Positions 1 to 12,017 of a stretch of DNA of 50,355 nt are shown one piece after another. The stretch lies in assembly GCF_030611305.1 (NCBI RefSeq), contig NZ_JAUWQB010000018.1, positions 1-50,355 on the forward strand. Direction: 5' to 3'. This stretch comes from Desulfobacula sp. Its GTDB lineage: Bacteria; Desulfobacterota; Desulfobacteria; Desulfobacterales; Desulfobacteraceae. Below the pieces are notes generated by a model. It worked only from the letters and a program-made list of their open reading frames with translations, ran no database searches and was not told where the DNA came from. Each line of letters starts with the position of its first letter. Position 1 is the stretch's first letter. Both the position numbers and the translations under genes were made by a program.

Positions 1-1295
1 CTGGAGCGGAAGGCAAGCTCGATACCAGAGGCGATGCATCCAAGTTCGGCGGAGACTTTGCTGTGATGATCAAGGGTGTCAATGATACTCTCGATGCGAT
101 AATTGCTCCTCTGAATGTAGCTGCCGAGTATGTTGACCGTATCTCCAAGGGTGACATTCCCGAGAATATCACAGACGATTACAAGGGTGACTTCAACGAG
201 GTCAAGAACAACCTGAACCAGTGTGTCGATGCGCTAAAGTCACTGATTGAAGAAGATGGAGGAGCGGCTCTTGAGGCTGCGGCTAACAGGGATCTCACAG
301 TAAGTGTGAAACGAGAATACCAAGGCCTATACGCAAAAATGAAAGAAAATATCAATAAGATGATAGAGAGTCTGCACGAGGCACTCACCCAGGCCACAGT
401 GACAGCCGACCAGGTGGGTTCCGCATCCGGTCAGATCGCATCATCAAGCCAGCAACTGGCTGAAGGTTCTGCTGAACAGGCCTCGTCATTAGAGGAAACT
501 TCCTCTTCTCTTGAAGAAATGGCCTCCATGGTAAAGCAAAACGCCGACAACGCCAATCAGGCGAATACCCTGATGCGGGAGTCGAGTGGGGTCGTTAAAA
601 TCGCTACACAGTCCATGGGTGATCTTACCACATCAATGGAAGATATATCTAAGGCGAGCGAGGAGACGCAGAAAATAATAAAAACCATTGATGAAATCGC
701 CTTCCAGACCAATCTTCTTGCCTTGAATGCGGCTGTTGAAGCTGCCAGGGCGGGCGAGGCGGGCGCCGGATTTGCCGTGGTGGCGGAAGAGGTGCGAAAT
801 CTTGCAATGCGGTCTGCTGATGCTGCCAAGGACACGGCAGATCTTATTGAAGGCACCGTCAAAAAGGTCAAAGGCGGGTCAGACCTGGTCGAAAAGACCA
901 GTGAAGAATTCAACAAGGTAGCCGAAAGCTCCGGCAAGGTCAGCGTGCTCGTCGACGAGATTGATGTGGCCTCCAATGAGCAGTCCAAGGGAATTGATGA
1001 GGTTAACAAAGCTGTTGCCGAGATGGACAAGGTGACCCAGCAGAATGCGGCAAATGCTGAAGAGAGTGCTTCGGCCTCCGAGGAGATGAGCGGACAGGCA
1101 CAGGAACTCAACAGCATGCTTGCCTCTTTTAAGTTGAACGGGGGCGGGAATAGCAAAGGCAAACCTAAAAAGGTAACCGGAGCTGCTCCAAAGCCGAAGG
1201 TTCGCAATGTCAAAAAGACTGGGCAGAACGTGAATCCTGAAAACATAATCCCAATGGATAATGCTGCCAACGATGAGTTTTTTAAAGATTTCTAA
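1..1295 (+). CDS. Methyl-accepting chemotaxis protein, C-terminal part (5' end outside window)
   Basis: The reading frame is open from base 3, so this is the tail of a longer receptor; the first ATG at 63 is internal. The visible part starts with HAMP-like linker sequence ([20 protein letters not shown], a form I associate with multi-HAMP receptors). A long coiled coil follows, with Glu/Gln-rich methylation stretches ([13 protein letters not shown]). The very conserved signalling hairpin tip is present ([20 protein letters not shown] ... [12 protein letters not shown]), which contacts CheA and CheW. No membrane segment is visible in this part. The C-terminus ends in DEFFKDF after a flexible Lys/Pro-rich tail, which resembles the aromatic CheR-tethering peptides at receptor ends. 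It is followed at once by a strong terminator. The receptor role is certain; the ligand cannot be told. Confidence 0.95.
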
Positions 1296-1305
1296 TCAAT
1301 AACCT

Positions 1306-1360
1306 GATCCCGGCTCCGCCCTTTCCCAAGTGAGGAAAGGGCGGAGCCGGGATCGTTTTC
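1306..1360 (+). terminator. Rho-independent terminator after the chemoreceptor gene
   Basis: A perfect 21-bp GC-rich inverted repeat (arms 1306-1326 and 1334-1354) has a 7-nt loop and is followed by GTTTTC. It lies 10 bp after the receptor stop codon and before the next gene's Shine-Dalgarno sequence at 1371. It should separate the receptor transcript from the genes downstream. Confidence 0.85.
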
Positions 1361-1387
1361 AACTTATCATAGGAGGTGCACCAACAG

Positions 1388-1993
1388 ATGGCTTTCACAT
1401 TTTTTTTCAGAGATCTTCCAGCCCTTCATGCGATCCGGGATCATGTGATCCCGGAGCTTAGAAAAAACCGCTATATTAATGCCTGGGATGCAGGGTGCGC
1501 TATGGGACCCGAACCATACTCCCTGGCCATTATCTTTAAGGAGGCCCTGGGGTACTACGAGTTTAAAAGGCTGAAAATATATGCCACAGACCTTGATGAA
1601 GAAAGCCATGAGTTTGGAAATATTATTGCAAAAGGGCTCTATCCGGAAGAAACAGTTAAAAGGATACCAAGGGATATCTTTGAAAAACATTTTTCAGCTA
1701 ACAATAAGCCCGGCCATTTCAAGATTGCAGACGAGATCATGCAATGTATTTCTTTTCAAAAACATGATCTGCGCACATTGAAGCCGATCCGTGATGATTT
1801 CGGCCTGATCGTCTGTAAAAATGTGCTGCTCCACCTGCAAGAGTCCGAGCGTATTGACGTTATCAAGATGTTCCATAAATCCCTTGCTCCCGGAGGATTC
1901 TTTGTAACAGAGCAGACACAGAAAATGCCCGTGACAACAGCCCGCCTGTTCAAGCAGGTAATCTCAAACGTGCAATTGTTTCGTAAAGTATAG
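1388..1993 (+). CDS. CheR-like SAM-dependent methyltransferase, catalytic domain only
   Basis: About 201 residues. It carries the CheR catalytic fold: an SAM-binding loop (DAGCAMGPEPYSLA, compare AGCSTGEEAYSLA in the full CheR at 3775), ATDLDEES as the acidic ribose-binding strand, and VCKNVLLHL with LAPGGFF late in the fold. It lacks the N-terminal helical CheR domain that helps recognise receptors. The usual GHSE ending is replaced by TEQTQ. An in-frame GTG at 1376 lies inside the Shine-Dalgarno AGGAGGTG (1371-1378), so ATG 1388 with a 9-nt spacer is chosen. It probably methylates glutamates on a receptor or another protein; the substrate is inferred from family membership only. The MBL gene follows 20 bp downstream. 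Confidence 0.8.
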   Translation: MAFTFFFRDLPALHAIRDHVIPELRKNRYINAWDAGCAMGPEPYSLAIIFKEALGYYEFKRLKIYATDLDEESHEFGNIIAKGLYPEETVKRIPRDIFEKHFSANNKPGHFKIADEIMQCISFQKHDLRTLKPIRDDFGLIVCKNVLLHLQESERIDVIKMFHKSLAPGGFFVTEQTQKMPVTTARLFKQVISNVQLFRKV

Positions 1994-2013
1994 TACGTGG
2001 TTGGAAAAAACAT

Positions 2014-2610
2014 ATGAAAATCATAAATCTTACAAGCAACAGCAATATATACACATCCAATGTTTATTTTCTTCTGGGTGATTGGAAGGCCATTGATGAC
2101 GTCAATACCCTTATCGACGTTGGCAGGGATTCTTCGATCATTGAGAAAATTAGACAGCTTGATACTGGCATAGGCAAGAAGAGGGTAGAAAAGGTAGTGT
2201 TGACCCACGGGCATTATGACCACGCAAGTCTTCTGCCGGTCATCAAAGATGAGTTTAACCCGGATGCCTATTCCTTTCATCCATTTAACGGGGTGAGCTA
2301 TGCCTTGAGGAATGGACAGGTACTGAAGCTGGCAGACAGGTGGTTCGAGGTCATACACACTCCGGGTCACACCAGTGATTCGATCTGTCTTTATTGTGCG
2401 GAAGAGGGCTCATTGTTTTCTGGTGATGCAGGCCTTATCGTTACTGCGATGGATGGCTCATACCAGGAAGCTTTTGTTAACGCCCTTGAAAGCATTGCGC
2501 GAAGGAATATCAAGGTAATCTACCCGGGGCACGGGAAGCCCATAACCAGACAGCCTAAGCAATTACTTTATAACTCTCTTGACAACATAAGAAAAAGCAA
2601 GATTTTTTAA
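2014..2610 (+). CDS. Metallo-beta-lactamase-fold metallohydrolase
   Basis: 198 residues. The zinc-binding signature HxHxDH is seen as THGHYDHAS. It is followed by a later metal histidine in HTPGHTSDS, the bridging Asp in FSGDAGL, and the terminal histidine in YPGHGKP. This is the layout of the glyoxalase-II-like or hydroxyacylglutathione-hydrolase-like branch. Such enzymes hydrolyse thioesters, lactones or phosphoesters; the sequence does not give the substrate. It is cytoplasmic, with no signal peptide. Only one base separates its stop from the start of the deacetylase gene, so the two are almost certainly co-translated. The pairing with a deacetylase and an acetyltransferase makes an acyl-thioester substrate an attractive guess, but it is only a guess. 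Confidence 0.85.
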   Translation: MKIINLTSNSNIYTSNVYFLLGDWKAIDDVNTLIDVGRDSSIIEKIRQLDTGIGKKRVEKVVLTHGHYDHASLLPVIKDEFNPDAYSFHPFNGVSYALRNGQVLKLADRWFEVIHTPGHTSDSICLYCAEEGSLFSGDAGLIVTAMDGSYQEAFVNALESIARRNIKVIYPGHGKPITRQPKQLLYNSLDNIRKSKIF

Positions 2611-2611
2611 A

Positions 2612-3373
2612 ATGAAAATTGTCTTCCATAATGATTACAAGGATTCAAGTTATGCCTCGGACCCTGCAGCCGCAGAAGGTAGAATGGAAAGCATAATGGA
2701 TCTTCTATCCAGACAAAAAGATTATTCCGTGATCAAACCAACAGCGGCTAAGATTGAAGATATTTTGCGGGTTCACGTAGAAGAACATGTGAGCCGCATC
2801 AAACAGGATGAAAAATTGTTTCGCATGGCACTCCTGTCGGCCGGCGGTGCCATAACTGCTGCCCAAATTGCTTTTGACGGAGAACCCACATTCGCATGTA
2901 TCCGGCCTCCGGGGCATCATGCCTCCAGTGCCTCATCCTGGGGATTCTGCTATTTCAACAACATTGGGATCTCTCTTTTGAAGCTCAGGTCGGAAGGCAA
3001 GATAAAAAGCGCATTCGTTCTGGATTTCGATGTACACACGGGAGACGGAAATAAGGACGTGCTTTCTGAATATCCGGAAATCAGAGTCTTTAATCCATTC
3101 TCAGGTGATAGAAAAGCCTATCTTGCGGAGATTGAAAAATTTTTAGCCGGAATCAACGGGATTGACATCATCGCTGCCTCGGCCGGCTTTGATACCTATG
3201 AAAAAGATTTCGGGAAAAAACTCAAAACGTTCGATTTCTATCTCATCGGCCGGCTGCTTAAAAAGTTTTCCAAAAAGTTGTGTAATGGTCGAAGATTTGC
3301 AGTACTTGAAGGGGGTTATTATCTACAGGATCTGGGTAAAAATGTACTTGCCTTTTGCCAGGGTTTTGAGTAA
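2612..3373 (+). CDS. HDAC-superfamily deacetylase (acetoin-utilization / acetylpolyamine-amidohydrolase type)
   Basis: 253 residues, short for the family (about 300-375). All catalytic landmarks are visible: the tandem histidines in RPPGHHA, the GFCYFNN loop, zinc ligands Asp and His in DFDVHTGDG, the third zinc-ligand Asp in SAGFDTY, and the transition-state Tyr in LEGGYY. The family removes acetyl groups from lysines or polyamines using zinc. The usual HHGNG segment reads HTGDG here, one of the few differences. It is tightly coupled to the MBL gene (1-bp gap) and is followed 15 bp later by a GNAT acetyltransferase. Together these could form a reversible acetylation pair beside chemotaxis genes. 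The enzyme class is well supported; the substrate is unknown. Confidence 0.9.
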   Translation: MKIVFHNDYKDSSYASDPAAAEGRMESIMDLLSRQKDYSVIKPTAAKIEDILRVHVEEHVSRIKQDEKLFRMALLSAGGAITAAQIAFDGEPTFACIRPPGHHASSASSWGFCYFNNIGISLLKLRSEGKIKSAFVLDFDVHTGDGNKDVLSEYPEIRVFNPFSGDRKAYLAEIEKFLAGINGIDIIAASAGFDTYEKDFGKKLKTFDFYLIGRLLKKFSKKLCNGRRFAVLEGGYYLQDLGKNVLAFCQGFE

Positions 3374-3388
3374 TCGGAAAATAAGTGA

Positions 3389-3712
3389 ATGAAAAAAAAA
3401 CTGAATATCAAGATGGAAAACATAAAACAAGGGGATTCAAGTTACTGCTGGGTAAACATTGAGCTTGGAAGCGCCCGGGTCGGCAAGGTCAGGATAAAAA
3501 AAATTTACAGCCGGCTTATAATTAAAAACATTAACATTTTTTCCGAGTTTGAAAAGCGCGGTTATGCAAGACAGACGATAGAGTTATTCAAGGAAACAGC
3601 CAGAGAAATTATTGCAGACAGAGTAAGAGACACAGCAAAAGGGTTCTGGGAGAAAATGGGATTTTTCGATGCTGGAGATGGAAATTACAGGTGGGTGCAC
3701 AAAGCGCGCTGA
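3389..3712 (+). CDS. Small GNAT-family N-acetyltransferase
   Basis: 107 residues, shorter than a typical GNAT domain (about 140-150), with the N-terminal part reduced. The acetyl-CoA-binding motif A is visible as EKRGYARQTIELFKE. The C-terminal strand shows the familiar AKGFWEKMGF ending, where the Tyr/Trp and Phe lie near the active site in this family. It would transfer acetyl from acetyl-CoA to an amine, of lysine, a protein N-terminus or a small molecule. It sits 15 bp after the HDAC-type gene and 62 bp before cheR, with the same orientation. It may be the forward arm of an acetylation cycle; this rests on context alone. Confidence 0.75.
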   Translation: MKKKLNIKMENIKQGDSSYCWVNIELGSARVGKVRIKKIYSRLIIKNINIFSEFEKRGYARQTIELFKETAREIIADRVRDTAKGFWEKMGFFDAGDGNYRWVHKAR

Positions 3713-3742
3713 AGACTATTCGACCAAACATGGGAGTGAATA

Positions 3743-3778
3743 ATGGGTTCGAAACTTGAGTTGGTTAGACGACGATGA
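3743..3778 (+). other. Possible 11-codon leader ORF coupled to cheR
   Basis: A mini reading frame (MGSKLELVRRR) begins 11 bp after a GGGAG Shine-Dalgarno-like run at 3731-3735. It ends in TGA overlapping the cheR ATG as ATGA (3775-3778). cheR itself has no clear ribosome site directly before its ATG, because that stretch is the mini-ORF. Translation of cheR may therefore depend on termination of this leader, or the mini-ORF may be the scar of a lost gene. No protein role is claimed. Confidence 0.35.
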
Positions 3779-4590
3779 CAGCCGAACTGAGAGATATTGA
3801 TTTTGGGAAGATAAGCCGTTTTGTTTATGAAAAATACGGAATCAATCTTCACGCCGGCAAAAAGGAGCTGGTGAAGGCTCGCTTAGGCAAGCGTTTGAGA
3901 GATGGAAATTTCAGGTCTTTTGCCGAATATTTTAGATTTGTTACAAAAAAAGAGGGGGCGGATGAACTGACCGTAATGATCGATTCCCTTTCAACGAATC
4001 TTACCAGTTTTTTCCGGGAGGACGCTCATTTCCATAGGTTCCGCAAGATTATACCCGGGATGGCAGGACCACTTTCTCACTATGGCCGTCTCAGAATATG
4101 GTGTGCCGGGTGTTCAACGGGCGAGGAAGCCTATTCCCTGGCTATGACATTAAAAGAAGCGTTAAACGGCCAAAATATTGATACACAAATACTGGCATCG
4201 GATATTTCCACGAAAGTGCTTAAAACCGCTATGGCAGGTGTTTATCCGAATGAGCGTGTCAAGAATATTCCCAATTCTTTACTTAGAAAATATTTTCAAA
4301 TCGGCCAGGAGGAATGGGAGGGATATTATCGGGTGAAAAAAGATATTAAAGATATTATAAAATTCATGAGGTTCAATCTTATGGAAAAGCCTCCTTTTAA
4401 TAATCCCTTTGACAGTATCTTCTGTAGAAATGTTATGATTTATTTTGATAAAGAAACTCAGGAAAAGCTGATCAACAGATTTTATGACTGCCTGAAAAAA
4501 GACGGGTGGTTGTTTATCGGACATTCCGAAAGCTTGACAGGCATGACGCATCCGTTTAAGTATGTTGAGCCAAGTGTTTATCGCAAATGA
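3775..4590 (+). CDS. cheR: Chemotaxis protein methyltransferase CheR
   Basis: 271 residues, full length for CheR. It has an N-terminal helical domain (about 1-75, with FVYEKYGINLHAGKKELV and LSTNLTSFFRE) and then the SAM-dependent methyltransferase domain. Motifs seen are WCAGCSTGEEAYSLA, the acidic strand LASDISTKVL, FCRNVMIYFD, and the closing FIGHSESL. CheR methylates glutamates of chemoreceptors using S-adenosylmethionine for adaptation and is opposed by CheB, found at 5967. The ATG overlaps the stop of a short leader ORF. It heads the run cheR-cheD-cheY-cheX-cheB-cheA. A perfect hairpin separates it from cheD. Confidence 0.95.
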   Translation: MTAELRDIDFGKISRFVYEKYGINLHAGKKELVKARLGKRLRDGNFRSFAEYFRFVTKKEGADELTVMIDSLSTNLTSFFREDAHFHRFRKIIPGMAGPLSHYGRLRIWCAGCSTGEEAYSLAMTLKEALNGQNIDTQILASDISTKVLKTAMAGVYPNERVKNIPNSLLRKYFQIGQEEWEGYYRVKKDIKDIIKFMRFNLMEKPPFNNPFDSIFCRNVMIYFDKETQEKLINRFYDCLKKDGWLFIGHSESLTGMTHPFKYVEPSVYRK

Positions 4591-4603
4591 AAGGTGGACT
4601 GAA

Positions 4604-4629
4604 GTTGTTTAGACCATAGTCTAAACAAC
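4604..4629 (+). promoter_or_regulatory. Perfect hairpin between cheR and cheD
   Basis: An 11-bp perfect inverted repeat (arms 4604-4614 GTTGTTTAGAC and 4619-4629) has a 4-nt loop. It is not followed by a T-run, so it is not a classic terminator. It could stabilise or process the mRNA between cheR and cheD, or be a DNA operator. The cheD start lies 18 bp downstream. Confidence 0.6.
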
Positions 4630-4647
4630 CTGAATGGATATAACTTT

Positions 4648-5130
4648 ATGAGCCGGATGATAGTAGGAATTTCAGATTTGAAGGCAAGTGGGAACGTTGA
4701 GGATATGTTGATTACGTATGCTCTGGGTTCATGTATCGCTGTCGCTGTTTATGATCCCACGGTAAAGGTGGGAGGGCTTTTGCATTTTATGCTTCCGAAT
4801 TCAAAGCTTGATTTGAATAAAGCCAAAGCAATTCCTGCAATGTTTGCAGATACCGGCATACCTCTTTTGTTCAAATCGTGTTACGGGTTGGGAGCTGAAA
4901 AAAAACGTATGATCGTAAAGATTGCCGGCGGGGCCAGCATCCTGGATAATTCAAACTATTTCCGGATCGGTCAGAAAAACATAACTGCTTTAAGGAAGAT
5001 ATTCTGGAAAAACGATGTGTTAATAGATGCCGAGGACACCGGCGGAGATCGCAACCGAACAGTTTCTCTCGATGTTTCTACCGGCAAAGTTGTTGTTAAA
5101 AAACCCAGCAATATTTTGCTGGAATTGTAA
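4648..5130 (+). CDS. cheD: Chemoreceptor glutamine deamidase CheD
   Basis: 160 residues, the usual CheD length. The catalytic cysteine lies in TYALGSCIAVAVYDP and the catalytic histidine in GGLLHFMLP, at the expected spacing. The later glycine-rich KIAGGASIL and DTGGDRNRTVSLDVSTG stretches are family hallmarks. CheD converts receptor glutamines to glutamates so that CheR and CheB can act, and in several bacteria its activity is tuned by a CheC or CheX-type partner. A CheX-like protein is encoded two genes downstream, so the same coupling is plausible here. The stop is 11 bp before the next gene, with GAGGGGG as its ribosome site. Confidence 0.93.
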   Translation: MSRMIVGISDLKASGNVEDMLITYALGSCIAVAVYDPTVKVGGLLHFMLPNSKLDLNKAKAIPAMFADTGIPLLFKSCYGLGAEKKRMIVKIAGGASILDNSNYFRIGQKNITALRKIFWKNDVLIDAEDTGGDRNRTVSLDVSTGKVVVKKPSNILLEL

Positions 5131-5520
5131 GAGGGGGTATCATGTCTTTTAATGTATTGATAGTGGATGATTCAAACTCAATGCGGGCTGTTATAAAGAA
5201 GGTTATTTCAATTTCAGGTTTTAAGATGGATCAATGCATTGAGGCCGGGAACGGAAAGGAAGCGTTGAAGGCGCTAACAGACAATTGGGTGGATGTAATT
5301 ATATCGGATATAAATATGCCGGAAATGAATGGTTTTGAATTATTAAAGAGTTTAAAAGATGATGATCTTTTAAAGAACATTCCCGTCATACTTATAAGCA
5401 CGGAAAGCAGTAAGGAGCGTATGCAGGATGCATTCAATCTGGGAGCAAAAGGTTTTATAAAAAAACCTTTTACTCCTGAAGCGGTTAAAAAAATTCTTTA
5501 TGAGGTCATAGGGGCAAGCA

Positions 5521-6998
<1,478 letters not shown>

Positions 6999-7001
6999 AT
7001 T

Positions 7002-9188
7002 ATGGAAAAATATGGCTCTTTGATGAATTTGATTGACGGCATGGCTTCAGACTTTTTATTTATTGACGGCAGAGAGATTGATGTGCCCACTGCGGGGAAG
7101 CTCCTTAATAACTTGGATGAATTGATAAAAGAAGCGAATAGCCAGAAGGTATTTCAGTTGAAAAACGTTGCCGGCGGTTTGAATTCACTTTTAGAAAAAA
7201 CTATTCTTGATGACATTGATGATAAAGAAGCAAGTTTTAATGTCCTTGAAAAAGGAATTGCCCTGATGCAGGAGATCGGTGAAAGTTTTAAGAACACCAA
7301 TGGTTACGAAGGTGATATTGAAAGTTTTATGGAGTCGATTGTCGCTCTTACGGGAGATCAACTACTGGAAGAAGTGGTGGAGGCTTATCAAGAGGAATCG
7401 CAACCGGCTGAAACTATTGAGGAGATACAGGATGACTCGCTGCTGAGGGATTTTATTGTTGAAGGTCTGGAATATATTGATGAGATTGAGGTAAATTTAT
7501 TGAATCTGGAGCAGGAGCCTGAAAATCTGGATTGCGTTAACGCTATCTTCAGACCGTTTCATTCCATCAAGGGGGTCGCCGGGTTTCTTAATTTAGAAAC
7601 GGTTTGTGATTTTGCCCATATTCTGGAGAACCTTCTGGACAGGATAAGAAATAAGGAATTATCGGTGACTTCCCGGCTTATAGATATAATTCTGGATGGA
7701 GCCGATGCCCTGAAGGCGCTGATTATTGAATTGAAAGAAAACATGGAAGGCAATCCCGGCGAACCTCTCGAAATTGACCTGCCTGCCTTGAAAAAAAGGA
7801 TAGAAAACGTTGAACAGGACGTCTCTGATGCGGTGGAAGTAAAAAGACTGGGTGAAATACTGGTCGAAGACGGCGCTATAACAGAGGAGAACCTGGAACA
7901 AGGGCTTGAGGTTGCGCAAGAATTGACTCCACCTAAAAAAATTGGAGAATCCCTGATATCTGAAGGCAAGGTTACTCCGAAGCAGGTATCACAGGCCCTG
8001 AGAAAACAGACAAAGCAGGTCGCAGATACTGCTGTGATAAGGGTAAATATAAAGAAGCTGGATGATTTAATCGATATGGTTGGTGAACTGGTCATTACCC
8101 AGGCGATGATCAGGCAAAACTCCTTTATTCTATCAAATTCCGATATAAGGTTAAGCAGAGATGTTTCCCGTCTGTCCAGTATCACATCGGAACTCCAAAG
8201 AACCTCTACCAGCTTAAGAATGGTGCCTATCAAGCAGACATTTCAGAGAACATCCCGTCTTATCAGGGATCTGTCCAGAGATACCGGAAAGCAGGTTGGT
8301 GTTGTAACTGAAGGTGAGGATACGGAAATAGACAGAAATATGGTGGAAGAGATATATAATCCGCTTGTACACATGGTACGAAATGCCGTAGATCACGGTA
8401 TAGATTCTTCGGAGGAGCGCATAAAGGCCGGTAAACCTGAAAAGGGTTTAATACAGCTCAAGGCCTTTCACAGAGGAGGTAATGTTGTCATCGAAATATC
8501 GGATGACGGAAAGGGGTTGGATAGGGATGTAATACTAAAAAAGGCTGTCGAGAAAAAACTCATCGATAGTTCACAGGATCTTTCGGATCAGGATATTTAT
8601 AAATTGATTTTTCTCCCCGGTTTCTCAACTGCTGCGAAGGTAACGGATATCTCCGGGCGGGGGGTCGGGATGGATGTAGTGAAACAGGCCGTGGTAAAAC
8701 TGCGGGGTAAAATAGAGATTGACAGCACTATTAATAAAGGCTCCACCTTTTCGCTCGGCTTTCCTCTTACCATGGCTATTATTGACGGTATGATTGTGAG
8801 GGTGGGCACTGAAAGATATATTATTCCTACCACCGCGATAAGACAGTTGTTACGTCCAGTGAAGAAATCTTATAACAACATAATCGGCAAGGGTGAAACG
8901 ATAAATGTGATGGGCAACCTTTTGCAGTTGGTAAGGTTGTATAAAATCTTCGATATAGAGCCTGAGCATAAAAATCCCTGGGATGCCATAGTGGTAGTGG
9001 TTGAATGTGAAAACAGCTCCAAGACCCTGATGGTTGATGAAATTTTAGGTGAAGAGGAAGTCGTTATCAAAAGCCTTGGTGAAAGTTTAAAAAATAGCAA
9101 AGGAGTTTCCGGCGGTGCTATCATGGGGGATGGTAATGTAGGATTGATATTGGACCCGGAAGGATTGTTTGAATTGAGTGAGGTGTAA
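7002..9188 (+). CDS. cheA: Chemotaxis histidine kinase CheA with an internal MshEN-like tandem repeat
   Basis: 728 residues. Residues 1-120 are helical and look like an HPt bundle without the histidine. A true HPt follows, with the phosphorylated His187 in RPFHSIKGVAGF. At residues 282-305 and 313-336 there are two 24-residue repeats (RLGEILVEDGAITEENL... and KIGESLISEGKVTPKQV...QALRKQ) matching the MshEN-type pattern. The dimerisation helices start near 345. The ATPase domain shows the N box VRNAVDHGID (about 457), DDGKGLD (about 500), FLPGFSTA and GRGVGMD. The CheW-like domain starts near 590. No P2 CheY-docking domain is recognisable. CheA phosphorylates CheY and CheB in response to receptor arrays. 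The gene starts 3 bp after cheB. Confidence 0.95.
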   Translation: MEKYGSLMNLIDGMASDFLFIDGREIDVPTAGKLLNNLDELIKEANSQKVFQLKNVAGGLNSLLEKTILDDIDDKEASFNVLEKGIALMQEIGESFKNTNGYEGDIESFMESIVALTGDQLLEEVVEAYQEESQPAETIEEIQDDSLLRDFIVEGLEYIDEIEVNLLNLEQEPENLDCVNAIFRPFHSIKGVAGFLNLETVCDFAHILENLLDRIRNKELSVTSRLIDIILDGADALKALIIELKENMEGNPGEPLEIDLPALKKRIENVEQDVSDAVEVKRLGEILVEDGAITEENLEQGLEVAQELTPPKKIGESLISEGKVTPKQVSQALRKQTKQVADTAVIRVNIKKLDDLIDMVGELVITQAMIRQNSFILSNSDIRLSRDVSRLSSITSELQRTSTSLRMVPIKQTFQRTSRLIRDLSRDTGKQVGVVTEGEDTEIDRNMVEEIYNPLVHMVRNAVDHGIDSSEERIKAGKPEKGLIQLKAFHRGGNVVIEISDDGKGLDRDVILKKAVEKKLIDSSQDLSDQDIYKLIFLPGFSTAAKVTDISGRGVGMDVVKQAVVKLRGKIEIDSTINKGSTFSLGFPLTMAIIDGMIVRVGTERYIIPTTAIRQLLRPVKKSYNNIIGKGETINVMGNLLQLVRLYKIFDIEPEHKNPWDAIVVVVECENSSKTLMVDEILGEEEVVIKSLGESLKNSKGVSGGAIMGDGNVGLILDPEGLFELSEV

Positions 9189-9209
9189 AAAAACGATGGG
9201 AGTATGGTT

Positions 9210-9596
9210 ATGAACATTGATAAGAATATAAAAATACTGTTGGTTGATGATTTTGCCACAATGAGGAAGGTCATTAAAAATCTCTTAAAACAGTCCGGGT
9301 ATAATAATATCGTTGAGGCCGAGGATGGTGTAGAGGCCTTGAAGGTGCTGAAATCAGAAAAGGTGGATTTTATTGTTTCCGACTGGAACATGCCCAACAT
9401 GACAGGCATTGAACTTCTAAAGGCCGTGAGGGCAGATAGTGACCTTTCCGGTTTGCCGTTTCTGATGGTTACAGCGGAAGGCCTTAAGGAAAACGTTGTG
9501 GTGGCGGTTAAGGCGGGTGTCAGTAATTATATTGTAAAACCTTTTACTGCTGAAGTCCTGAATGAAAAGATTAAAAAAATCATAGAAAAACTATAA
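9210..9596 (+). CDS. cheY: Chemotaxis response regulator CheY (second copy)
   Basis: 128 residues, one receiver domain of canonical CheY length. It shows [20 protein letters not shown], the phospho-Asp in [23 protein letters not shown] and VKPFTAEVL, all very close to the classic motor-binding CheY. ATG 9204 is only 2 bp from the GGGAG ribosome site, so ATG 9210 with normal spacing is chosen. It lies 21 bp after cheA, so CheA is the expected phosphodonor. Of the two CheY proteins here, this one is the better candidate for motor control. Confidence 0.93.
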
Positions 9597-9620
9597 GAAC
9601 GGGGTCTGAAGGAGACAAGG

Positions 9621-10100
9621 ATGGATGTTAGATTTATAAATCCCTTTTTAGAGGGAACGATTAGCGTATTGAAAACAATGGCCTTTGTTGAACCAAAACC
9701 TGGCAAACCCTATCTTAAAAATGATGGTTTGGCCAGGGGTGATGTCTCCGGCATCATAGGTTTTACAGGAACACTATCAGGTTCAATGGCCCTGAGTTTT
9801 TCTGAGAACGCCATATTGAAGATTGTATCAAATATGCTTGGGGAGGAAATTAGAGAAATCAATGGTGACATTGAGGATGCCGTGGGTGAGATTACAAATA
9901 TAATTTCAGGTGTGGCCAGAAAAAAGCTGGAGTCGCTCGGCTTAACTGTCTTAGCTGCAATCCCTACTGTAGTCTCAGGCAAGGGTCACTCAATCAAGCA
10001 TGTCCTGGGTGGTACAAGTGTTGTTATTCCATTTGAAACGAAAGATGGGCCTTTTGTCGTGGATGTTTGTATGAGCGAGATGAAACAGAAAACAAAGTGA
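9621..10100 (+). CDS. cheX: CheX-family CheY-P phosphatase (second copy)
   Basis: 159 residues. The D-x3-E-x2-N phosphatase signature is EDAVGEITNIISG, followed 22 residues later by the conserved proline in AAIPTVVSG. The start MDVRFINPFLEGTISVLKTM and the FTGTLSGSMALSFSENAI strand pair are typical of CheX. It should dephosphorylate CheY-P. It follows the second cheY by 24 bp with AAGGAG as ribosome site. With the earlier cheY-cheX overlap, the cluster holds two cheY-cheX pairs around cheB-cheA. The two CheX proteins are clearly diverged, so this is not a recent duplication. Confidence 0.92.
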   Translation: MDVRFINPFLEGTISVLKTMAFVEPKPGKPYLKNDGLARGDVSGIIGFTGTLSGSMALSFSENAILKIVSNMLGEEIREINGDIEDAVGEITNIISGVARKKLESLGLTVLAAIPTVVSGKGHSIKHVLGGTSVVIPFETKDGPFVVDVCMSEMKQKTK

Positions 10101-10170
10101 AGAAAAAATCTAAATAACTGATAAGCCGAGCTGTAGAGAATTGAAATAAAAAGAATAGGGGAATAATGGA

Positions 10171-10572
10171 GTGAAAACTAAAACCAATGATTATCTGACG
10201 GCCAATGAGACCATTCTTTTAGTGGATGATGAGAAGCCCATTCTCGACGTAACATGCGATATGCTGACTCGGCGTGGTTATACGACTATCACGGCGGAAA
10301 GCGGAGAGACGGCCATTGAGGTTTATAAGAGAAAAGGAGATCAGATTGATCTGGTGCTCCTGGATATAGGGATGCCCGGCATGGGTGGTCACAGGTGTTT
10401 TGAGGAGCTTCTTAGAATCAATCCCGGGATAAAGGTTATTATTGCCACTGGTTATCCTGCCAGCGGAAAGGTAAAAGAAACGCTTGGTTCCGGTGCTGCC
10501 GGTTTTATAAGCAAACCATATCGGATAGCTGATATGGTGAAAAAAGCAAGAAAGGTTCTGGATAGAAGATAG
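10171..10572 (+). CDS. Single-domain response regulator (receiver only)
   Basis: 133 residues. It has a receiver domain with VDDEKPILD, the phospho-Asp in LVLLDIGMPGMGGHRCFEELL, the switch residue in IATGYP and the conserved Lys in FISKPYR. It resembles the receiver domains at the ends of hybrid histidine kinases more than it resembles CheY. It starts with GTG at 10171, 8 bp after AGGGGA; the ATG at 10166 is closed at once by a stop. The upstream 70-bp gap is larger than elsewhere in the che cluster, so it may be a later addition. Its 3' end faces the NtrC-type gene 4 bp away. Partner kinase unknown. Confidence 0.85.
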   Translation: MKTKTNDYLTANETILLVDDEKPILDVTCDMLTRRGYTTITAESGETAIEVYKRKGDQIDLVLLDIGMPGMGGHRCFEELLRINPGIKVIIATGYPASGKVKETLGSGAAGFISKPYRIADMVKKARKVLDRR

Positions 10573-10576
10573 GCCT

Positions 10577-11956
10577 TTAGCTGATGTTATATCTTTTCAA
10601 TTTTTCTACAAGGGTTGTTCTGTTCAGCTTTAATAACTTTGCGGCCCTGCTTTTTACCCCCCCCGATTTCACCAGGGCCTTCCGGAGCAAATCTTTTTCA
10701 AATTGACCGATTGTTTCATTCAGACCCAGACCGTTATCCGAAATCTCAATATCGCTTATGATTCCTTCAATTTTTTCTGAATTCAGTTTTGTTTTATCAG
10801 GCAAATCCTTTAACTCTATAGTGCCGGATCCTTTCATGACAACAAGCATTTCAATAAGGTTTTGCAATTCTCTTACATTGCCGGGCCAGGAATATTTCGC
10901 AAGGCAATTCATGGATTCGGGCGTTAATCCCTGAATTTTTTTTTCTTTTGATTTATTAAATGTTCTTAGGAAATGATTGATCAGGACAGGTATATCCGCC
11001 TTTCTTTCTCTAAGAGGCGGAAGATGAATGGGTATCACGTTGATGCGATAAAAGAGATCCTCTCTGAATTTTTTTTCTGCCACGGCTTTTTCCAGATCCA
11101 GGTTTGTCGCGGTAATAATCCTTATATCCAAATCTATGGTTTTTATGCCTCCAATTCGTTCGCACTGCCTTTCCTGTATTACCCTCAGCACCTTTACCTG
11201 CAACGAAGGGCTCATGTCGCCTATCTCATCGAGAAAGATTGTTCCCCTCTGGGCTAATTCAAACCGACCTGTCCTGCTCCGTATGGCCCCTGTAAATGCG
11301 CCTTTTTCATGCCCGAACAATTCACTTTCGAGAAGCTCTTCAGGAATTGCACCGCAGTTTACCGTAACAAACGGCTGGGCTTTCCTGCCGCTATTGAAAC
11401 ACAGCGCATGGGCCACCAGTTCCTTGCCTGTTCCGCTTTCGCCATATATAGCAACAGTACTGTCTGATGAAGCCGCTTTTTTGATTTTTTCAAAAACATC
11501 CTTCATCTTATCGCTGTAAGCTGTCAATTTGCCAAAGTTATACTTTTCCTCTAAATGACCCCGAAGGATGATATTTTCCTCTTTGAGTTTTGCATGGGAC
11601 AGAGCCCTTTCAACAACCAGCCCGACACGATCTTTCTTCAAAGGTTTTGTTATATAATCAAAAGCTCCTAACCTCATGGCTTCAACAGCGCTTTTCACAG
11701 TGGCGTAACCTGTCATCATGACAACGACATTTTCGGGATTCATCTCTTTTATGAATTTAAGCAGCTGCAGACCATCGATGTGGGGCATTTTCAGATCTGT
11801 TATGACCAGATCATATTTGTCATAAGGAAAGACTTCCATTGCCTCCTGACCATCTTTGACAGCCTTAACCTCATAGCCGTTTTCAGACAACAATTCTACC
11901 AGATTTTTTCTGTTAAGATCATGGTCTTCAGCAATTAATATCTTAGCCTTTTTCAT
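10577..11956 (-). CDS. NtrC-family sigma-54-dependent response regulator
   Basis: 459 residues with three domains. An N-terminal receiver (about 1-120) has IAEDHD and the phospho-Asp in LVITDLKMPHIDG. A central AAA+ sigma-54 activator domain has Walker A GESGTGKE, the sigma-54 contact loop GAFTGA and Walker B TIFLDEIGDM. A C-terminal Fis-type helix-turn-helix reads SRAAKLLKLNRTTLVEKLKRY. It would remodel sigma-54 RNA polymerase at enhancer-dependent promoters when phosphorylated. No cognate kinase lies next to it; the orphan kinase at 22745 is one candidate. Its target genes cannot be read from here. A terminator hairpin lies just upstream, after RNase G. Confidence 0.93.
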   Translation of the reverse strand: MKKAKILIAEDHDLNRKNLVELLSENGYEVKAVKDGQEAMEVFPYDKYDLVITDLKMPHIDGLQLLKFIKEMNPENVVVMMTGYATVKSAVEAMRLGAFDYITKPLKKDRVGLVVERALSHAKLKEENIILRGHLEEKYNFGKLTAYSDKMKDVFEKIKKAASSDSTVAIYGESGTGKELVAHALCFNSGRKAQPFVTVNCGAIPEELLESELFGHEKGAFTGAIRSRTGRFELAQRGTIFLDEIGDMSPSLQVKVLRVIQERQCERIGGIKTIDLDIRIITATNLDLEKAVAEKKFREDLFYRINVIPIHLPPLRERKADIPVLINHFLRTFNKSKEKKIQGLTPESMNCLAKYSWPGNVRELQNLIEMLVVMKGSGTIELKDLPDKTKLNSEKIEGIISDIEISDNGLGLNETIGQFEKDLLRKALVKSGGVKSRAAKLLKLNRTTLVEKLKRYNIS

Positions 11957-11989
11957 AGCAACCTACCCCCAACAACCAAGAACTATTTT

Positions 11990-12017
11990 CAAAAAAAGCA
12001 ACATATGCGAGTTGCTT
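11990..12017 (-). terminator. Rho-independent terminator downstream of RNase G
   Basis: Read on the - strand, arms AGCAAC and GTTGCT (12016-12011 and 12003-11998) enclose a 7-nt loop and run into seven T's. It lies about 110 bp beyond the rng stop and about 35 bp before the NtrC-type start. It can end the radical SAM-rng transcript, unless it acts as an attenuator for the regulator gene. The rest of the 168-bp gap (11957-12124) shows no clear promoter match. Confidence 0.65.

Follow-up and report, generated by a model that had tools for sequence, protein, structure and literature searches.

Acetyltransferase, deacetylase and MBL-fold genes beside a CheR-like gene in a chemosensory cluster of Desulfobacula

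Introduction

Why would a bacterial chemosensory gene cluster carry, between two genes of CheR type, genes for an MBL-fold protein, an HDAC-type deacetylase and a small GNAT-family acetyltransferase? The question is raised by a 50,355-nucleotide stretch of Desulfobacula sp. DNA, here called the window (G000:C126:1-50355, G000 being the window's genome). A previous sequence-only reading of this locus proposed that the three genes could be a dedicated writer and eraser of acetyl marks on chemotaxis proteins, with the MBL enzyme acting on an acyl thioester, or else a polyamine acetylation cycle that sits there by chance. Among the literature matches listed, mostly non-subscription papers, neither an acetyl pair in a chemosensory cluster nor the pairing of an MBL-fold protein with the CheR-like protein encoded here (CheRl) is described. 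Our best reading, which we advance tentatively, is that a chemosensory protein carries an acetyl mark written by GNAT and erased by HDAC.

Results

Gene layout of the window

The cluster runs on the + strand, with short gaps, from a gene for a methyl-accepting chemotaxis protein (MCP) to a second cheX gene. The first gene is truncated at its 5' end, where the contig starts, and its 3' part (3..1295) was identified as an MCP from the translation; an MCP also lies upstream of CheRl in L010, L118, L122, L163, L165 and L166. It is followed by genes for CheRl, a 205-residue CheR SAM-domain protein without CheR_N (1376..1993; PF01739 at 6.7e-38, no PF03705 match), whose likely start is the ATG at 1388, as most aligned relatives begin MAFT; for an MBL-fold protein of 198 residues with an HxHxDH metal motif, glyoxalase II/LACTB2-like by Pfam and alignment (2014..2610); for HDAC, a short classical (HDAC-type) deacetylase of 253 residues identified by Pfam, motifs and tree (2612..3373); and for GNAT, 107 residues, identified by Pfam, profile and alignment (3389..3712). 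Beyond these lie canonical cheR, encoding CheR_N and the SAM domain (3775..4590, Pfam), and genes for CheD (4648..5130, Pfam), a CheY-like receiver (5142..5564), a CheX-like protein (5521..5964, Pfam), CheB (5967..6998), CheA (7002..9188; PF01584 at 8787-9176), another CheY-like receiver (9204..9596) and CheX (9621..10100, domain annotation), the receivers, CheB and CheA being named by eye from their translations.

The MBL and HDAC genes are separated by 1 bp and HDAC and GNAT by 15 bp, all on one strand and flanked by CheRl and cheR; ORF translation and Pfam confirm the coordinates, gaps and domain calls given earlier for them. A promoter and terminator scan returned 4 promoter-like sites against 7.3 expected and 1 terminator-like site against 3.7 expected. 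Among relatives, pairwise dN/dS for CheRl, MBL, HDAC and GNAT falls between 0.05 and 0.23 in 35 of 36 comparisons, the outlier (0.40) being the GNAT pair L005-L006 with a dS of 0.10. These low values point to purifying selection, and hence to all four genes being kept as proteins.

Genomes surveyed

We surveyed 291 genomes of the order and 297 of the phylum, each set a sample of a larger group. Matches were found in 114 (HDAC), 14 (GNAT) and 18 (MBL) genomes of the order and in 5 (GNAT) and 13 (MBL) genomes of the phylum; G000 is counted in every set, and G045 and G096 in both MBL sets. Combined, the surveys yield 20 places for GNAT, spread over 18 genomes, and 32 for MBL, spread over 28, and since only the best-ranked candidates per genome were scored, places may be missed. 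The stretches around all GNAT and MBL places were scanned for che genes, many contigs ending near the genes in question. A core che gene is taken as MCP, CheA, CheW, CheR, CheB or CheD.

GNAT is linked to CheRl and to core che genes

The GNAT acetyl-CoA motif is Q/RxxGxG/A. The pattern [E/Q]xxGx[A/G] occupies residues 55-60 in 14 of 14 aligned rows, with E in first place in the window (the L010 GNAT, which has a stop within the stretch, was left out of the alignments), and a 14-row profile matches solved GNATs at 3e-5. By this motif and by a marginal pass in Pfam (Acetyltransf_1, 22.1 bits; cut-off 20.7), the window GNAT belongs to the family.

CheRl lies on the same stretch as GNAT, or is fused to it, in 14 of the 20 GNAT places, and a core che gene is present in 13; one or the other occurs in 19, the core che gene of L115 being an MCP only, about 9 kb from GNAT. 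The single place with neither is L116 (G156), where a kinase/chemotaxis-type sensor-domain gene (PF22309) lies beside HDAC. GNAT keeps company with CheRl in L166 (G177) though MBL and HDAC are missing there, and outside the order L198 carries the one-strand series CheY-CheA-CheW-CheRl-MBL-GNAT-MCP-CheR-CheB-CheD-HDOD. A full che operon with GNAT between MBL and MCP, and without the module's HDAC, is recorded for G455, which lies outside the order.

MBL, HDAC and GNAT share a contig in eight loci (the window, L006, L010, L117, L118, L119, L123 and L124). A core che gene was found in six of them, CheRl in six, and one or the other in all eight. The trio is thus not mostly away from che genes in these loci, and the chemosensory placement on which the sequence-only reading was built is conserved.

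GNAT and CheRl also occur fused. In G444, protein P0001 (318 aa; L201:6045-6998, - strand) joins CheRl and GNAT in one chain, with CheR at 8-175 (Pfam) and GNAT at about 212-311 (family profile); an NCBIfam N-acetyltransferase match at 253-303 stays below its cut-off, and Pfam lists no GNAT domain at E 0.01. The CheR part keeps the Tyr of the NVxxYF motif and is closest to the CheRl of L175 (61%). Elsewhere, short GNAT pieces that look like remnants follow CheRl in G049 and G573; GNAT remnants are recorded at L179, L203 and L010, and the L123 GNAT is without its C-terminal part.

This pattern could also mean that GNAT partners CheRl alone, acetylating CheRl or a shared target site, with HDAC as an optional reset and no array-wide acetylation. 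The 14 places with CheRl, which include one where both MBL and HDAC are missing, and the fusion are consistent with such a partnership. The HDAC-GNAT pairs of G132, G156 and G566, however, stand on stretches without CheRl, and the fusion gene lies among TRAP transporter genes (TAtT, DctP, DctM) on a contig with no che operon. We regard this explanation as possible, though unlikely. Distinctly less probable is a non-flagellar arrangement of two writer-eraser pairs, CheRl (an altered methyltransferase) with an MBL hydrolase and GNAT with HDAC, under which array adaptation would follow both SAM/methyl and acetyl-CoA status and the fusion would be a two-headed writer.

HDAC is paired with GNAT in part of the lineages

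The window HDAC scores 129.9 bits against Pfam Hist_deacetyl (cut-off 27.9). The motifs RPPGHH (98-103), DxDxH (138-142), GFD (192-194) and EGGY (233-236), which we take to have catalytic roles, are invariant in 15 aligned rows, bearing out the earlier claim of a complete catalytic set. Judged from its sequence, the score together with the metal and catalytic motifs assigns the protein to the classical Zn-dependent deacetylase family. It has its Pfam family and zinc-site motifs in common with the five clusters of classical bacterial deacylases set out in PMC11532494, where the available main text has no occurrence of "chemotaxis" or "CheY".

HDAC lies directly upstream of GNAT in 10 of the 20 GNAT places; in the other 10, one of them at a contig end, GNAT occurs without it. 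At E 1e-15, HDAC went unmatched in G041, G177 and G238, and the matches in G170 and G455 were no more than partial, at 39-40%. Two copies on the che side are damaged, L010:2960-3685 being without the GHH motif and L124:1132-1813 broken. HDAC is the least stable member of the module, and the damaged HDAC and GNAT copies mean either that the acetyl mark is dispensable or that there are assembly errors in the MAGs.

We placed the HDACs in a tree of 47 rows, including 29 of 74 loci from more distant organisms and 6 control loci and excluding the damaged L010 and L124 copies. The HDACs seen with the module's GNAT fall in one clade of 11 rows (support 100/99), in which the L007 contig ends before any GNAT and the G261 GNAT is on a second contig. 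The clade includes G132, G156 and G566. In G132 and G156 the pair is found outside che operons, next to hybrid kinases or a sensor-domain gene, so the label "beside che genes" takes two changes on the tree. In G566, a DnaJ-domain gene (Pfam) precedes CheD-HDAC-GNAT (L199:815-1573); in L010, an ORF close to the second MBL (L010:5891-6661) resembles a J-domain gene by eye.

Other HDACs show no such surroundings. Among 22 control loci (the 19 best-scoring lower-identity HDAC places with longer stretches, plus G228, G269 and G192), none has CheA, CheW, CheR, CheB or CheD, one has an MCP, and none has GNAT, MBL or CheRl. In the 74 distant loci, with flanks of up to 6 kb and many short contigs, none of these genes was found at all. 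We therefore rejected random neighbours as an account of the conserved linkage. We likewise rejected the idea that the window HDAC is an ordinary copy of the general family, as its distant relatives (in Loki- and Thorarchaeota, Archaeoglobus, Dehalococcoidia, Spirochaetes and Deltaproteobacteria) sit in other, lineage-specific neighbourhoods. An acetyl-CoA synthetase suspected beside the distant HDACs was not borne out, the three annotated neighbour clusters being epimerase, FtsZ and ABC ATPase. As a separate observation, the tree unites HDACs of Lokiarchaeota, Spirochaetes and Deltaproteobacteria (100/100; L011, L012, L016, L021, L026, L047, L049, L059, L060 and L120), which suggests HDAC transfer between Asgard archaea and bacteria.

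The GNAT fold includes polyamine enzymes, as does that of HDAC, and solved acetylpolyamine amidohydrolases are among the HDAC matches. The pair could accordingly run a small-molecule acetylation cycle on a polyamine or other amine, its product sensed by the neighbouring receptor, or the cycle could be there by chance. Residue 71 of the window HDAC aligns with residue 126 of the acetylpolyamine amidohydrolase 3q9b, so about 55 residues fewer precede the shared core, and in the alignment to HDAC6 the place of the PIS/PEG motif reads D-F-G. PMC11532494 links activity on polyamines to dimer formation, to PIS or PEG motifs and to an extended L2 loop, which it places in the N-terminal part that is shorter here; the extended L2 loop and PIS that mark bacterial polyamine deacetylases there (cluster 4) are not recognised in the primary structure of HDAC. 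These features favour an open, protein-type site. Together with the conserved che linkage and the single HDAC clade, they weaken the polyamine or chance alternative raised at the outset, which we rate as less probable again than the two-pair arrangement.

CheRl and MBL form a wider unit

CheRl is present on the stretch in 29 of the 32 MBL places and a core che gene in 26. CheRl is absent from L123 and L178, where MBL is at a contig end, and from L177; the places without a core che gene are L117, L119, L164, L167, L175 and L177. GNAT or HDAC accompanies MBL in 12 places and neither does in 20. No GNAT match was found in 13 of the 28 MBL genomes, and no MBL match in 3 of the 18 GNAT genomes (G049, G177 and G573). 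One-strand clusters joining CheRl-MBL with CheA, CheW, MCP, CheR and CheB occur in L169, L198, L202, L205, L207, L209 and L210. Because CheRl and MBL are linked across the MBL places, most of which have neither HDAC nor GNAT, they make up the wider unit, and the pair seems to have been retained widely in the phylum as an accessory of chemosensory operons. By the same count we rejected the trio as one acetyl unit, so that of the proposed dedicated writer and eraser the che placement stands and the grouping of the three genes does not. Since MBL so often occurs without acetyl partners, its suggested action on an acyl thioester of the acetyl cycle finds no support in the genomes.

We take the Tyr of NVxxYF to be the one lost from a CheR-like domain of Treponema denticola. 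CheRl differs from canonical CheR in having no PF03705 (CheR_N) match and in the replacement of this Tyr, which is His in 27 of the 28 stand-alone CheRl copies read (of 33; L124, L167, L170, L171 and L174 were left out) and Tyr in 10 of 10 canonical CheR proteins from the same set of loci. In 11 of 12 rows CheRl retains the Arg motif FFR. According to PMC7666581, the T. denticola domain has lost the Arg and Tyr essential for methylation but has kept SAM binding, and ordered arrays depend on it. The two systems are alike in having an MBL-fold protein and a catalytically altered CheR-like domain as array accessories, the former being ODP in T. denticola (PMC7666581). There, however, CheW carries the CheR-like domain as a fusion, with both Arg and Tyr changed, whereas CheRl is free-standing beside MBL, has His for Tyr and keeps the FFR motif. 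Two variants may be recorded here: L175:396-1688 holds a CheRl with Tyr kept beside an MBL with Asp for the second His of HxHxDH, and in L122:3190-5227 (G261) MBL and HDAC are separated by a gene for a ParA/MinD-like ATPase and by another that weakly matches a methyltransferase.

The window MBL scores 78.1 bits against Pfam Lactamase_B (cut-off 22.7). In an alignment of 22 rows, from which the MBLs of L177, L165 (broken) and L123 and L178 (both cut) were omitted, every row has H65, D69, H70, H119, D138 and H173, and 21 have H67. Flavodiiron proteins carry the metal motif HxExD, in contrast to the HxHxDH of MBL. Matches to Pfam ODP (PF19583) reach 20.2 bits in the window and 21.6 in L169, below the 27.2-bit cut-off. 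That MBL serves the array as an ODP-like redox or oxygen sensor, with the acetyl enzymes along as incidental passengers, is the least probable explanation: it draws on these weak matches, on the frequent company of CheRl and on the MBL-fold oxygen sensor for chemotaxis ODP of T. denticola, genetically coupled to an MCP homologue (PMC7666581 and PMC7319448), yet one would not expect passengers to remain linked and under selection, and the ODP-linked receptor is without sensing and membrane parts, whereas the L163 MCP has a weak-to-clear HBM sensor match.

Neighbouring kinases and signalling output

Hybrid or PAS kinases neighbour the module in L007, L115, L117, L163, L164 and L166. PAS histidine kinases border L117 and L164, and genes near L117 labelled CheA by BLAST turned out to be such kinases; in L007 a hybrid kinase separates MBL from HDAC, and its 3.9 kb carry no che gene. 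Two-component genes being frequent neighbours, the module may be part of sensory signalling more widely than chemosensory arrays.

The che cluster at 1-10572 of the window belongs to a genome without matches to FliM (PF02154) or FliG_C (PF01706) and with two PilT-family genes above cut-off. The same searches were positive in 4 of 14 control genomes. The flagellar switch genes that would mark flagellar chemotaxis thus gave no match in the assembly, which is 97.37% complete in 159 contigs, so that FliM or FliG could have been missed. With no such match, signalling in the manner of CheY and FliM is doubtful here, and the PilT-family genes make type IV pili, or some other non-flagellar function, the probable output. 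The sole CheW match in the genome is the C-terminal domain of CheA; in L163 and L166 a free CheW stands beyond the MCP, and here too one may precede the start of the contig.

Discussion

AcuA is a GNAT-type lysine acetyltransferase. In the acu operon of Bacilli, AcuA and AcuC are neighbouring writer and eraser of the target AcsA (PMC13121692), and this pairing of an acetyltransferase with an HDAC-like deacetylase is the closest precedent for the enzyme pair. It differs in that the window GNAT has 107 residues and its profile has no chain named AcuA among the matches listed; reading by eye through the ORFs of 1-12000 and 10 further ORFs brought up no AcsA, AcuB or acetyl-CoA synthetase gene. 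The closest precedent for the target class is E. coli CheY, an acetylated chemotaxis protein with CobB as deacetylase, where loss of CobB lowers chemotactic responses (PMC2883070). CobB is an NAD-dependent sirtuin, whereas the window enzyme is of HDAC type, and the E. coli output is the flagellar switch protein FliM. To our knowledge, CobB is not encoded in a che operon.

We propose that 1376-3712 is a lineage-specific accessory block of the chemosensory gene cluster, built in layers: CheRl with MBL would be the most widespread, GNAT would have been added beside CheRl, and HDAC would have been paired to GNAT in part of the lineages. GNAT would transfer acetyl from acetyl-CoA to a lysine (or N-terminus) of a chemosensory array protein, probably near CheRl, either CheRl itself or a receptor, CheA or CheW surface that CheRl binds. 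HDAC would remove the mark, so that array output might track the acetyl-CoA state of the cell. MBL would be a separate accessory, either a metal-site sensor or a hydrolase working with CheRl.

We favour an acetyl mark on a chemosensory protein because of the 19 of 20 linkage, the fusion, the L198 operon, the one HDAC clade, the control loci and the purifying selection, and further because of the lack of FliM and FliG_C matches, the PilT-family genes and the AcuA/AcuC and CheY/CobB precedents. Against it count the GNAT places without HDAC, the damaged copies, the G132 and G156 pairs outside che operons, the kinase-flanked loci and the marginal GNAT Pfam score. If the proposal is right, GNAT and HDAC, inherited with the chemosensory cluster, would supply a sensory array with an acetyl input of its own, and removing the genes would then be a way to test acetylation in chemosensing. 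The locus suggests that some uncultured relatives of sulfate-reducing bacteria may use acetylation to adjust their sensing machinery.
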